Below, one piece after another: positions 5,023 through 30,607 of a stretch of 64,000 nt of DNA. The notes below the pieces were generated by a model. The model did no database searches and had not been told where the DNA came from. It saw only the letters and a program-made list of their open reading frames with translations. The stretch comes from Collinsella tanakaei YIT 12063 (lineage in GTDB: Bacteria > Actinomycetota > Coriobacteriia > Coriobacteriales > Coriobacteriaceae), in NCBI RefSeq assembly GCF_000225705.1, contig NZ_JH126472.1:1-64000 (forward strand). The letters run 5' to 3'. The position numbers were made by a program, and so were the translations under genes. The first letter of the stretch is position 1. Each line of letters opens with the position of its first letter.

Positions 5023-6177
5023 CTACTCCTCCCCCTCTGCGGAAGAGTCCGTCTCACCGCTTACCGATGCGGTGCCGTTAGACCAATCGGACGCTTCATT
5101 GTTGGAAAGGTCACCGACGGTGGCAGAAGCATCGGTGGTCGATCCAATGGTCTGGGGTCCCCTGGGATCCTCGCCAGCGTCCACGCGCTCCATCATCGCT
5201 GCAAGCTCGTCTTCAAGCGCGACAACGTAGCTCACGCCAGTAGAGTCGTCCGTGGTAGACGGGATGTTCGCAGACCAAATCTCGTCCGTATTCATGCCGC
5301 GCATAGCGTTGGCGAGCGCGACGATATCCTGAATGCTCATATCCGTCTCGACCATGCCGGAAAGCGAGTCGATCAGAGGGAAGATGGTGGCGGCGTCGGT
5401 GTTGTTGAGAACCTGTTTGGCAAGAGCCGCAATGAAGATGCGCTGATGACGCATGCGGGTGTAGTCGCCATCGGCAAAAGCGCGCGAACGGCAGAAGGTC
5501 AGCGCCTCTTCGCCGTTAAGCTTCTGAAGGCCGGGCTCGATCACCACATTGCCCGCCTTGGGGTCATCGATCTTATCCGGAACGTCTACCTCAACGCCGC
5601 CGATTGCATCAACAAGCTGCTGCATGCCCTCGAAACTCACCTCTGCATAGTGGGATATCTCGATGCCGCACAGCTCGTTGACCGCCTTGACAACATCATC
5701 GGGGCCGCCAAGCGCGTGCGCGGAGTTGATCTTCGCCGTTTCGCCGTTACTTAGGGTCACGCGGGTGTCTCGGGGAATGGAAATAAGCGTTACCTGCTTG
5801 TTCTTGGGGTCGATGCGACTAAGGACGATGGTATCCGACCTGAAGCTCGATTCGCCCGGCCTGCCATCTGTGCCCAGCAGCAGCATGTAGAAGGGATCGC
5901 TTGTAACATTGCTATCGACCAACGTTGCAAGCAAGTCGCTTGTGATATTCACTCCATGGAGGTTGCCGGCGATCTTAGAGACCCAAAGGCCAGCTGCGCT
6001 CACGCCGCACAGCAGCACCGCGAGCAGCGTGCAGACGATGGTGCGCCGAATGAGCTTTCCACGACGGCGCTGGCGCGCACGCTCCGAGTAACGGCTCACG
6101 TTATCGCGGCTATAGATGCGACTGCTCGCCCCCACTGAGGGACGACGGGTCTGTTGAACAGGCTTCTTCTTACCCAT
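5023..6177 (-). CDS. LytR-CpsA-Psr (LCP) family cell-wall ligase
   Basis: A 384-residue membrane-anchored LCP protein. Members transfer lipid-linked anionic glycans to peptidoglycan outside the membrane. A basic cytoplasmic N-terminus (RARQRRRGKLIRR) is followed by one transmembrane segment (about residues 47-65). The LCP core contains LLLGTDGR, the DTIVLSRID strand, SIPRDTRV and the CRSRAFADGDYTRMRHQR block with its pyrophosphate-binding arginines. The acidic Ser/Glu tail is likely unstructured. The start at 6177 has AAGGAAA at good spacing; another ATG overlaps the murA stop at 6192. Tight linkage to murA fits an envelope operon. Confidence 0.92.
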   Translation of the reverse strand: MGKKKPVQQTRRPSVGASSRIYSRDNVSRYSERARQRRRGKLIRRTIVCTLLAVLLCGVSAAGLWVSKIAGNLHGVNITSDLLATLVDSNVTSDPFYMLLLGTDGRPGESSFRSDTIVLSRIDPKNKQVTLISIPRDTRVTLSNGETAKINSAHALGGPDDVVKAVNELCGIEISHYAEVSFEGMQQLVDAIGGVEVDVPDKIDDPKAGNVVIEPGLQKLNGEEALTFCRSRAFADGDYTRMRHQRIFIAALAKQVLNNTDAATIFPLIDSLSGMVETDMSIQDIVALANAMRGMNTDEIWSANIPSTTDDSTGVSYVVALEDELAAMMERVDAGEDPRGPQTIGSTTDASATVGDLSNNEASDWSNGTASVSGETDSSAEGEE

Positions 6178-26936: not shown

Positions 26937-27863
26937 TTACATAGGCTGACGATCCATGCAGGCAGTCCACATGGCCTGACGGTCATCCTCGTTGATGCCC
27001 GCGATGATCTCGTTGATCTGGTCCAGCACCGCATCCTGCCCCTTGGCGATGGCGGCGTTGTCCGGCATGACGGAACCCTCGAACTTATCGGTCATCTCAA
27101 GCTCGACAAAGTCCGGGTAGGTCTCAAGCAGCTTGGGAACAGAAAGCATGGAATAGGTGACGATGTCGCAAGTACCGTTGTTGAGGTTCTCAACAACCAT
27201 GGGCACGGTCTCCGCCGGCGTCATATGGTTGATGTTGGGAATCTGGTCGATGACGTCATCGTACATGGTCGCGGCCTGACCCAGGATCGATGCGCCCTCG
27301 AGCTCGGCAAACGTGGTGGCCCCAGCGAAGGCGGAATCCTTCTTGGTAATCATGACAATGTCATCGTCCACGTAGGAGTCAGAGAACGCCGCGGCGGACT
27401 CACGCTCGGGTGTGACGGACATACCGGCGCACACAATGTCGATCTGACCATTGTTAACGGCGTCGATCAAACCTGCAAAGTCAAGTTTGACGGCGACGGG
27501 CTCAAGGCCCAGCTCCTCGGCGATGATCTTGGCAACCTGAACGTCATAACCGTCCGCATAGGCGCCCTTGACGTTCTCGATGGGAATGGTGAAATCGGAC
27601 TCTTCGGTGACCTGCCAGTTGTAGGGTGCGTAAGCCGCCTCCATACCAACTCGCAGGGTCTTGCCATCACCAAGGGTAGCCTTCTTATCGCTCTCCTCCG
27701 CGGAGCCCTTGTCCGCATCGCTCTCAGGCGCGGCGGGGCCGCAGCCGGTGAGAATCAGCATTCCGCCCATACCCAGGGCGGTAACACCGGAAAGCTTGAG
27801 AAAATCTCGACGTGAGCACTGGCTAGTTGCAGCAACCATCTGCTGCTTTGCGTTCTTGGTCAT
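26937..27863 (-). CDS. Extracellular amino-acid-binding protein (family 3), Tat-type lipoprotein
   Basis: A 308-residue substrate-binding protein. The leader holds SRRDFLKLSG, a twin-arginine motif, a hydrophobic stretch and a lipobox LILTGC, so it is probably exported folded by Tat and lipid-anchored at the Cys near residue 42. The mature part is a family 3 periplasmic-binding fold: TLRVGMEAAYAPYNW, GYDVQVAKIIAEELGL, then FAGLIDAVNNGQIDIVCAGMSVTPERE. The ligand is probably a polar amino acid; the exact one is not readable. It is upstream of the permease with a 205-nt gap. Confidence 0.93.
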   Translation of the reverse strand: MTKNAKQQMVAATSQCSRRDFLKLSGVTALGMGGMLILTGCGPAAPESDADKGSAEESDKKATLGDGKTLRVGMEAAYAPYNWQVTEESDFTIPIENVKGAYADGYDVQVAKIIAEELGLEPVAVKLDFAGLIDAVNNGQIDIVCAGMSVTPERESAAAFSDSYVDDDIVMITKKDSAFAGATTFAELEGASILGQAATMYDDVIDQIPNINHMTPAETVPMVVENLNNGTCDIVTYSMLSVPKLLETYPDFVELEMTDKFEGSVMPDNAAIAKGQDAVLDQINEIIAGINEDDRQAMWTACMDRQPM

Positions 27864-28435
27864 GGCGGTTCCTTCCGTTTATGAGCGCAATATCCCCTTC
27901 CGTGCCCCGCAACCGGAGGGGACCCATTCCCCTCCCCCTTGCAACTTAATGCGAGAAAGTTACGTGCACAATCGCCAAGGATAGCGTGAATGCGCAGCAG
28001 ACGCTAGCGCGCAATAAAGCGGCAACATTCACTTTTTGGCTCATTTGATGCGCTAACGGCGGCTCTTTTTTCACAACGAACAACGTCGGCGCCTCGCCTC
28101 TCACCATTCTCTTCATCCAATACCGCTTACGCATCGCTCGGTACACTAATAGTGCATTAATGCCTGTCATTCATTCATTACATCTTTGGACGAGTGCTTG
28201 AAGCATAGATATCTATTCATTAAAAGTTGCTTATTATCTATCTTTTATACAATAGCATGCGGAAGCATCCCCACCGGCCCCTCGACATATGCGCCACACC
28301 CCATGACACCCGCGCCGCGGCCGGGCATTCAAAAAAGAACATGATTCGCACACTAACGCTGCCACTATTTACGCACGCGGTCACGCCCTCTGCCTCGCCC
28401 CGCCCAGCGTCCCTGAGCCCCGCACCGCGCAACCG
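27864..28435. other. 572-nt intergenic region upstream of the binding-protein gene
   Basis: An AT-richer stretch (notably 28180-28260) with no supported gene. A GGAGGGG/CCCCTCC hairpin near 27914-27938 lies in the presumed leader of the amino-acid transporter operon. On the plus strand a TTGCTT-TACAAT pair with a 15-nt spacer occurs near 28228-28254, but no gene follows it. No T-box or amino-acid riboswitch signature was recognised. Confidence 0.5.
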
Positions 28436-28903
28436 CTACGCAAGCATCTCGAGCAACGCCGTGCAGCCGTTGACCACGTCCGCGTACGTCGCGTCAAAAT
28501 TGCCCGTGTACCAGGGATCTGCCACATCGCGCGATGAACCCGCGAACGAGAGCAGCTTTGCCAACTTGGCGCCGCCGTCTGCCCGGCACGCAGCATTGGA
28601 CGAGAATATCCTGGAAAGGCCGCGCATGTTCTCGCCATCCATACCAACAATGTAATCCCAGTCGCCATACTCGTCCCCACGCACCTGTCGGGCACGGTGC
28701 GGCACCACCGCGATGCCGGCGCGCTGCAAGCGCGAAACCGTGCCGCGATGCGGCGGGTTGCCGATCTCTTCCCTACTGGTCGCTGCAGAATCGGTGCGAA
28801 ACTCGCCCTCGCGACCCGCCTCTGCCACCAGGTGCGCCATCACGGACTGAGCCATGGTGCTCCTGCAGATGTTGCCGTGGCATACAAAGAGAATGCGGTA
28901 CAT
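28436..28903 (-). CDS. Low-molecular-weight protein tyrosine phosphatase
   Basis: 155 residues. The P-loop VCHGNICRS at residues 7-15 (Cys8 nucleophile, Arg14) and the general-acid Asp in VADPWYTGNFD near residue 125 define the LMW-PTP family. In bacteria these often act on tyrosine kinases of envelope polysaccharide synthesis, but no such kinase is adjacent. The start at 28903 (MYRILFVCHGN) has GGAGGACCC; the frame extends far upstream without a start signal. Confidence 0.93.
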   Translation of the reverse strand: MYRILFVCHGNICRSTMAQSVMAHLVAEAGREGEFRTDSAATSREEIGNPPHRGTVSRLQRAGIAVVPHRARQVRGDEYGDWDYIVGMDGENMRGLSRIFSSNAACRADGGAKLAKLLSFAGSSRDVADPWYTGNFDATYADVVNGCTALLEMLA

Positions 28904-28988
28904 GGGTCCTCCAGATTCGTCCGCGATGACGTTGCCACAAGCTAGCTTACCCGCAAACCGGCTTATCCACTGGAGTCGACAAACCTTG

Positions 28989-29162
28989 GGTATTAAGAAG
29001 GACCGTTTTTCAATGCCTAAGTGGTCCGTTTTAATACCTCTGTGAAAATCGGTATTATCCTTTACCACTTTTCTACGATTTTTTGGTCATCTTTAATACC
29101 GATTTCCAAATCGGTATTACAGCGTGTCATTTTTAGCATTCAAAATGGCACGCTGTAATACC
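28989..29162. repeat. Repeat island 1: three 50-nt dyads at 62-nt period
   Basis: Three units of exactly 50 nt (28989-29038, 29051-29100, 29113-29162) each begin GGTATTA and end TAATACC, separated by 12-nt linkers. Each unit is a symmetric dyad with its own inner arms: GGACC/GGTCC in unit 1, ACCA/TGGT in unit 2, and CAGCGTG/CACGCTG in unit 3. The central loops differ. The second linker extends the ends into a perfect AATACCGATTT/AAATCGGTATT palindrome. AT-rich, intergenic, between two minus-strand phosphatase genes. No flanking cas or transposase gene. Confidence 0.88.
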
Positions 29163-29244
29163 CATGCCACATGAAGCGCGCAAGTCAGTCTGCGGCCTCA
29201 ATCATGGACGTAGGACCAGGGCGGTATCTTGGCCACAGCTGACG

Positions 29245-29817
29245 CTACTCCAAGCGAATCGCCTGTTCAAAGCTAAAGACGCCGTCTTCAAAATCAAACA
29301 CCAAGATTAGACAGTTTCCCCAACCGCGGGCAAGCTCCTCTTTGGCGGCATGGTAGACCGCGCGCAAGAAGTTGTAGTTTGCGCCCCCATGGCTCACGGC
29401 AAGCACGCGCTCGTGCCCCTCTTGGCTCATAACCTGGGTTAGGGTCTCCACCATACGGTCTCGCACCCAATCCGACGAGTCGCCGCCAAACGGCAGGTAA
29501 TAGCTCACGCACTCCTCGGGCGTTTTGGCGCACAGGTAATCTGGCAGACCCTCTAGCTTGCCAAAGTTCATCTCCTTAAGACCGCGCAGACGCGTGTACG
29601 GCATGCTGGTCATAAGCTCAAGCGTATCGCTCGCGCGCTCGGACGTTGAGCAGTACACATGATCAAATGCGATGCCCCGCTCTTCAAAATACCTGCCTAC
29701 CGTACGAGCCTGCTCTCGTCCGCGGGCGGTAAGGGGCGAGTCGCACCACCCCTGCACGCGATGCTCAACATTGAACTGCGTCTCACCGTGACGTACCAAA
29801 TACAGTTTCTTGCCCAT
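29245..29817 (-). CDS. Histidine phosphatase family protein
   Basis: A 190-residue member of the phosphoglycerate-mutase-like superfamily. The phosphoacceptor motif is LVRHGETQFN (His near residue 9). The acid EMNFGKLEG and the second catalytic His in VLAVSHGGANYNF are present. The sequence resembles small broad-specificity phosphatases rather than true glycolytic mutases, so the substrate is open. The start at 29817 has GGAGGAGCACGC. It is divergent from the MarR gene. Confidence 0.9.
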   Translation of the reverse strand: MGKKLYLVRHGETQFNVEHRVQGWCDSPLTARGREQARTVGRYFEERGIAFDHVYCSTSERASDTLELMTSMPYTRLRGLKEMNFGKLEGLPDYLCAKTPEECVSYYLPFGGDSSDWVRDRMVETLTQVMSQEGHERVLAVSHGGANYNFLRAVYHAAKEELARGWGNCLILVFDFEDGVFSFEQAIRLE

Positions 29818-30032
29818 GCGTGCTCCTCCTCCGCATCGCGCCTTCACCGCAATCCAATCTTTGCGCCGCAGGCTTATCGTGCCACCTTGATAAAGAACCT
29901 TACGCACGGGCTAGACACATGTCCAATACCTATATCTTATCCAATGACATGCATAGCTGTTATAAATACTGGTATGTAAAACAGGTGACCATATCTTTTA
30001 GAGGGGCAGGTCGCAATATTTAATTCGGTACC

Positions 30033-30060
30033 TTGACATCTATCGAGCGCGGATTATACT
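30033..30060 (+). promoter_or_regulatory. Promoter of the MarR-ABC exporter operon
   Basis: A perfect -35 TTGACA (30033-30038), a 16-nt spacer and TATACT (30055-30060), about 32 nt upstream of the marR GTG start. The AT-rich stretch just upstream (ATACTGGTATG) could hold an operator, but no clean dyad over the promoter was fixed. Confidence 0.82.
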
Positions 30061-30091
30061 TGCCACGGCAATCAAAGGTAAGGAGAATTTT

Positions 30092-30607
30092 GTGAACGGT
30101 TCTGAAGAAGAGCGCAGAGAGGTGACGGCAAGCAACGCGATGCGCGGGCCAGTGTGCCCGGACCTGCCGGACGCCCCCGCCCTAGAGGAGGACCCCGTGA
30201 TGGCTCGCGCCGCGCGCATCCTCACCAACCTGGGATTCTGCGGTCACTACATGCACTTTCATCGCGGCGGCAGATCGGGCCGGGCGCCCATTTTGTGCCT
30301 GCTGGAGAAAAACGGCGGCACCATGTCGCAGCAAGCGCTTGGAGCGTCCTTTGATCTTAAGGCCGGATCGCTTTCAGAAATCCTTTCAAAAATGGAGGGC
30401 GGCGGACTCATCACCCGTACGCGCGACCGGCAAGATCGCCGTCAGCTCACCGTCTGCTTAACCGAAGCTGGCGCAGAGGCGGCCCGCTTGGAGACCGAAG
30501 CGCGCATTCGCTTTAGAACCCGCGCGTTTTCAAATCTCACCCCAGAAGAACAAGACCAGCTGGCCGACCTGCTCGACCGCGTGAAGTCCCGTTGGGAGGA
30601 ACTATGA
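30092..30607 (+). CDS. MarR-family transcriptional regulator
   Basis: 171 residues with a winged helix near the middle: SQQALGASFDLKAGSLSEILSKMEGGGLITRTRDRQDRRQLTVCLTEAG. The wing DRQDRRQ is typical of MarR. The C-terminal helices form the dimer. It starts with GTG behind AAGGAG and its stop overlaps the ABC gene start (ATGA), so it probably autoregulates the exporter operon and relieves it on ligand binding, as in other MarR-efflux pairs (inference). Confidence 0.9.
   Translation: MNGSEEERREVTASNAMRGPVCPDLPDAPALEEDPVMARAARILTNLGFCGHYMHFHRGGRSGRAPILCLLEKNGGTMSQQALGASFDLKAGSLSEILSKMEGGGLITRTRDRQDRRQLTVCLTEAGAEAARLETEARIRFRTRAFSNLTPEEQDQLADLLDRVKSRWEEL

Follow-up and report, generated by a model that had tools for sequence, protein, structure and literature searches.

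The array of inverted repeats in the 64,000-nt stretch of Collinsella tanakaei YIT 12063 analysed here (the window) belongs to a genuine family of dispersed palindromic repeats that is restricted to one species and unusually rigid. All three of its units (Table 1) begin with GGTATTA and end with TAATACC, and the 50-nt units, 12-nt linkers and 62-nt period described by an earlier sequence-only reading are exact in window coordinates. The 64-kb window has six copies of GGTATTA, all of them in the array, against a mean of 1.67 in shuffled sequences, which never reached six. A genome-wide search, which that reading had proposed, returned 12 dyads of the form GGTATTA-N22..50-TAATACC in 2.49 Mb (eleven of 50 nt, one of 49 nt) against one in the reversed control, so the motif is not randomly frequent. 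Read in register, all these places give 13 intergenic arrays on eight contigs, with three units in the same register in 12 of the 13 and two in the C7 copy. A covariance model built for the linker-centred 62-nt module recovers the arrays in this genome, adds to many of them a terminal outer hairpin (50 or 59 nt, on one side or both) and finds a 14th locus, a lone hairpin with an altered core (C6:66669-66730, corresponding to L127:6670-6731). This hairpin has the 62-nt layout, lies between convergent genes and carries the core CGATACC/TGTATCG, in which both arms are changed at pairs that are otherwise nearly invariant.

Table 1. Arrays of the family, components of the window array and its flanking genes.
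Feature	Position	Strand	Description
Arrays, contigs C1-C2	C1:20359, 27281, 62711, 549741; C2:153366, 214286
Arrays, contigs C3-C5	C3:143479, 224380; C4:30851; C5:67410
Arrays, contigs C6-C8	C6:28989 (window); C7:94761; C8:112662
Unit 1	28989..29038	none	half-sites h1 (GGTATTA-AGAAGG-ACC) and h2, inverted
Linker 1	29039..29050	none	12 nt, TCTGTGAAAATC; centre of inner hairpin 1
Unit 2	29051..29100	none	half-sites h3 and h4
Linker 2	29101..29112	none	12 nt, GATTTCCAAATC, itself palindromic; centre of inner hairpin 2
Unit 3	29113..29162	none	half-sites h5 and h6; 21-bp near-perfect inverted repeat
Linker-centred 62-nt module 1	29014..29075	none	covariance-model match, 58.1 bits; hexamers match 0/6
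Linker-centred 62-nt module 2	29076..29137	none	covariance-model match, 56.4 bits; hexamers match 2/6
Low-molecular-weight protein tyrosine phosphatase (PF01451)	28436..28903	-	start codon faces the window element, 85 nt off; context only
Histidine phosphatase (PF00300)	29245..29817	-	stop codon faces the window element, 82 nt off; context only

What repeats along an array is a half-site of 31 bp, GGTATTA-N4-G-N-RCCA-YTTT, whose orientation alternates. Over 50 half-sites the consensus is (AT)-N-GGTATTA-N4-G-N-RCC-A-Y-TTT, with GTATT and CC near-invariant and N4 free. Exact matches to GTATTANNNNGNRCC number 58 in the genome (18 in the reversed control), and since 55 of them sit in arrays and only three outside, a regulator with solitary operators was rejected. 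The 25 inner hairpins align without gaps over 62 columns, with zero length changes, while 440 of the 1000 letters in their 40 non-core columns depart from the majority. All 25 inner linkers have 12 nt, in a search that assumed this length; spacing was left free in the covariance model and in the search for units. Every middle unit has 50 nt; 51 nt occurs in some units at the ends. Fixed length kept together with diverged but matched arms agrees with the impression from the letters that the array is not one repeat in decay. The constant 26+36 period would also suit a CRISPR-like array of 26-nt palindromic repeats (TAATACC-N12-GGTATTA) and 36-nt spacers. The 36-nt intervals, however, share RCCA-TTTT...AAAA-TGGY in nearly every copy and so are not independent spacers, and there are only two to three such repeats; these conserved blocks contradict a CRISPR array, a reading we regard as hardly tenable.

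A pair of blocks spaced by roughly one helical turn and recurring every 31 bp in alternating orientation suggests a bipartite protein site presented on one face of the DNA. The elements are short, non-coding and dispersed, bear terminal inverted repeats and are globally symmetric in their 13 copies, as expected of a MITE; the copies showed no common reading frame, and same-strand alignment was no better than reversed, so that the near-symmetric arrays have no consistent orientation. Our leading account, which we put forward tentatively, is a MITE/BIME-like, lineage-specific interspersed family whose half-sites are recognised by a protein, whose arms are equalised by template switching and whose copies are kept at gene 3′ ends. 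An element is 174 nt of non-coding DNA (about 224 nt at most with outer hairpins), a run of six to eight half-sites, each of 31 bp, that alternate in orientation. Each half-site (GGTATTA, with RCC about one helical turn on) would most likely be recognised as double-stranded DNA by a putative protein, which may be the enzyme behind the element's past spread or a DNA-binding protein resident in the cell. As 31 bp is close to three turns, it would lie along one face of the DNA, and such an arrangement, with half-sites every 31 bp, could explain why the spacing is frozen while the spacer letters drift.

Within the half-site, variation is greatest in the hexamer that separates the conserved blocks. 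Hexamers facing each other across a linker agree beyond shuffled expectation (h2-h3, P=0.0024; h4-h5, P<0.0002), whereas those within a 50-nt unit show no such agreement (P=0.35-0.73). At least five of six positions match in 9 of 25 linker-facing pairs (1.1 expected, P=6e-7), in 2 of 38 unit partners (1.7 expected) and in 7 of 9 outer hairpins. A search for homologous loci in related genomes, where compensatory changes were to be sought, found none; the comparison was run on the 13 paralogues instead and covariation appeared in the linker phase, with a linker-centred score of 0.224 against 0.148 for shuffles (0 of 500) and no unit-centred covariation across the 13 copies (0.171 against 0.165). 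Since matching and covariation lie mostly across the linker, the 50-nt unit that the sequence-only reading had taken as the paired dyad corresponds to the less common phase, which the window happens to represent.

The claim that each unit stays base-paired holds for two of the three in the window: unit 1 folds with 10+6 pairs and one mismatch between them, and unit 3 with 21 continuous pairs, one of them G-T, but unit 2 forms only 7+4 pairs with six unpaired letters per arm (hexamers match 1/6). Three copies, the window's included, combine high unit-phase with low linker-phase scores (P=0.04 for three such elements), and across elements the two scores are mutually exclusive (rho -0.76, permutation P=0.007). 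Each half-site thus seems to match one neighbour at a time. Our account would have the N6 stretches drift and then become equal again through hairpin template switching at replication, which would copy one inverted arm into the other, in most cases across the 12-nt linker and, in a minority that includes the window, within the 50-nt unit; this unit-phase minority amounts to three elements only, at the P=0.04 given above.

The type of pairing bears on what maintains the matched arms. Among hexamer pairing cells, Watson-Crick combinations are in excess (86 against 55 expected), and G-T and A-C are equally low (9 against 14.8 and 9 against 12.2), with no G-T excess in the variable arms. Had selection acted on a single RNA strand, G-U pairs should have been favoured. 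Such selection is therefore disfavoured here, and copying of arms at the DNA level fits the wholly Watson-Crick excess better; of the possibilities raised from the letters (selection for structure or for a paired binding site, or copying of arms), copying fits better, and selection for structure is not supported in its one-strand RNA form. The matched arms may also come from selection for a cruciform in the DNA or for RNA of both strands. Template switching is known to make imperfect inverted repeats more perfect (PMC7202029, PMC3820800).

Every copy adjoins a gene 3′ end and none lies between divergent genes. Seven arrays and the lone hairpin are placed between convergent genes and the others between tandem ones. 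With gene calls from a home-made codon-usage caller and element E06 set by hand (counted as tandem because of a long minus-strand frame to its left, itself without a Pfam match), convergent neighbours flank 7 of the 12 clear arrays, against 11 of the 73 intergenic regions that these loci otherwise contain (P=0.003), and a divergent setting is found at 0 of 14 loci against 21 of 73 (P=0.02). The elements have 37.5% GC in surroundings of 60% GC. Read mostly by eye, the neighbouring genes (uvrA, recR, polA, tRNAs, the low-molecular-weight phosphatase and others) share no theme. The pneumococcal repeats BOX, RUP and SPRITE are likewise enriched between convergent genes, a pattern typical of parasitic repeats that Croucher et al. 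attribute to insertion tolerance downstream of genes (PMC3049150). Copies of the present family may similarly survive at gene 3′ ends because insertions are tolerated there.

Other features lie near some of the copies. The window holds a Corio-PBP RNA (RF02945) at 27896-27969 on the minus strand (L022:7897-7970; 101 bits against a gathering threshold of 63.5), and a solute-binding-protein-like gene of the same strand (26937-27863) follows just downstream of it. A Collinsella-1 RNA (RF01700; L023:5425-5587, minus strand, 44.8 bits) stops some 40-50 nt short of the outer hairpin in element E13, probably by coincidence, since none of the remaining Rfam-scanned loci has one. After polA, a very long perfect inverted repeat (GGGAGGTCCCCTTCCCCTGGAGTAT..., L021 about 5700-5765) precedes the element.

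The constant adjacency of a gene 3′ end, often in convergent arrangement, invites a reading in which the hairpins are transcribed and serve, between genes, to terminate transcription in both directions or to stabilise mRNA; the stems are stable, and many linker-centred ones have an A-run before and a T-run after them. We consider it unlikely. No intrinsic terminator (G+C-rich stem, short loop, T-run) was called in window positions 28300-30200, and the 12-nt loops and A+T-rich inner stems contrast with the G+C-rich hairpins after polA in relatives, while the copy by polA in this genome lies beyond an ordinary long hairpin. An RNA element would leave loop length free to vary, yet it is constant in all inner hairpins, and the missing G-U signature counts against transcribed stems as well. 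Rfam 15 covariance models gave no match at E<=1 in window positions 28000-30500, nor did gathering scans of the 13 element loci match the elements.

The family is confined to one species in our searches. A degenerate unit pattern finds 28 units in this genome, none in the control and none across 44 congeneric species, and the covariance model has no match in 66 other genomes of the family. Across 397 genomes of the order its sole match outside this genome is a weak one in G194 (L138), which at E=4.6e-4 per genome over that number of genomes we take as chance. The site, in another family of the order (G194:C2:27383-27439, L138 about 1475-1545), is a nested GGTATCA/TGATACC palindrome and possibly belongs to a different repeat family. 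A pattern search over 84,980 other species and viral contigs gives only lone matches with differing spacings, also taken as chance; the linker-centred pattern has no match in viral contigs, and phage and plasmid collections yielded none. The polA 3′ intergenic region, which holds a copy here, is without the element in the relatives examined, and the orthologous regions there are too diverged to place the insertion, an exact empty site or a target-site duplication.

The strict spacing speaks against our leading account, since a neutral MITE should have gained indels by now; it asks for continuing selection, which is more in keeping with a host function than with a parasite. The elements might be presently immobile chromosomal sites, fixed-size platforms of six to eight protomers for a lineage-specific nucleoid, segregation or regulatory protein, as three units in 12 of 13 arrays, the frozen 31/62-bp register, the bipartite motif and the scarcity of solitary half-sites elsewhere would suggest. 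Against this stand the lack of a common theme among neighbouring genes, a placement that tracks insertion tolerance, and the absence of sites from every relative, though nucleoid-protein sites tend to be shared; we judge it rather improbable. A more specific version of events, in which the 13 arrays form a chromosome-wide set of docking sites of fixed size where a putative DNA-binding protein assembles on alternating half-sites every three turns and switching between two hairpin phases equalises the spacers, is likewise doubtful. If true, it would describe a lineage-specific chromosome-organising or mobilising system without a described counterpart.

Bacterial dispersed palindromic repeats are mostly known as near-identical or decaying copies. 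In this family the spacer letters have drifted far, the inner-hairpin length is unchanged and many facing arms are still equal, so that protein contacts, geometry and pairing, normally confounded, can be told apart. Its 50 half-sites form a natural set for finding the binding protein and for measuring hairpin arm copying in a living chromosome. The family, its architecture and spacing, the covariation and its phase, the missing wobble signature, the positions and the restriction to one species are observed; from them we infer protein binding, past mobility, template switching and a function, and any benefit is hypothetical. The family was not found described in the literature searched, which held nothing on point about such repeats in Collinsella.

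Among known systems, REP/BIME/REPIN elements resemble the family in their inverted REP-like half-sites, clustered in extragenic space and predicted to form hairpins (PMC3116915). The intergenic, palindromic, dispersed and hairpin-forming elements described here, and the presence of Y1_Tnp genes in 39 of 45 genomes of the genus, would suit REP/REPIN-type elements mobilised by a Y1 (RAYT) transposase. The source genome, however, has no PF01797 match, and a search for a mobilising enzyme that covered Y1_Tnp (PF01797) identified none in it; most REPs carry a GTAG/CGTC tag (PMC3733652), which the half-site consensus GGTATTA-N4-GNRCCA does not contain. A current REP/RAYT system is thereby contradicted, and we hold this origin very improbable. 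The fixed alternating arrays, with a half-site every 31 bp, are a further difference.

Compared by features rather than by sequence, the family is close to BOX, RUP and SPRITE of Streptococcus pneumoniae, which are also short, non-coding, hairpin-forming intergenic repeats, nearly limited to one lineage and enriched between convergent genes; RUP and SPRITE share its A+T-richness and BOX its modularity (PMC3049150). It differs from them in copy number (13 here, 30-125 there), in its fixed module number and global symmetry, in hexamers that match facing arms, and in strong divergence outside the core without indels. Quasipalindrome correction by template switching would explain hexamers that are equal and perfect by Watson-Crick pairing; it is known as a mutational process acting on single inverted repeats (PMC7202029, PMC3820800), whereas here it would be repeated in a chain in which each half-site has two possible partners.
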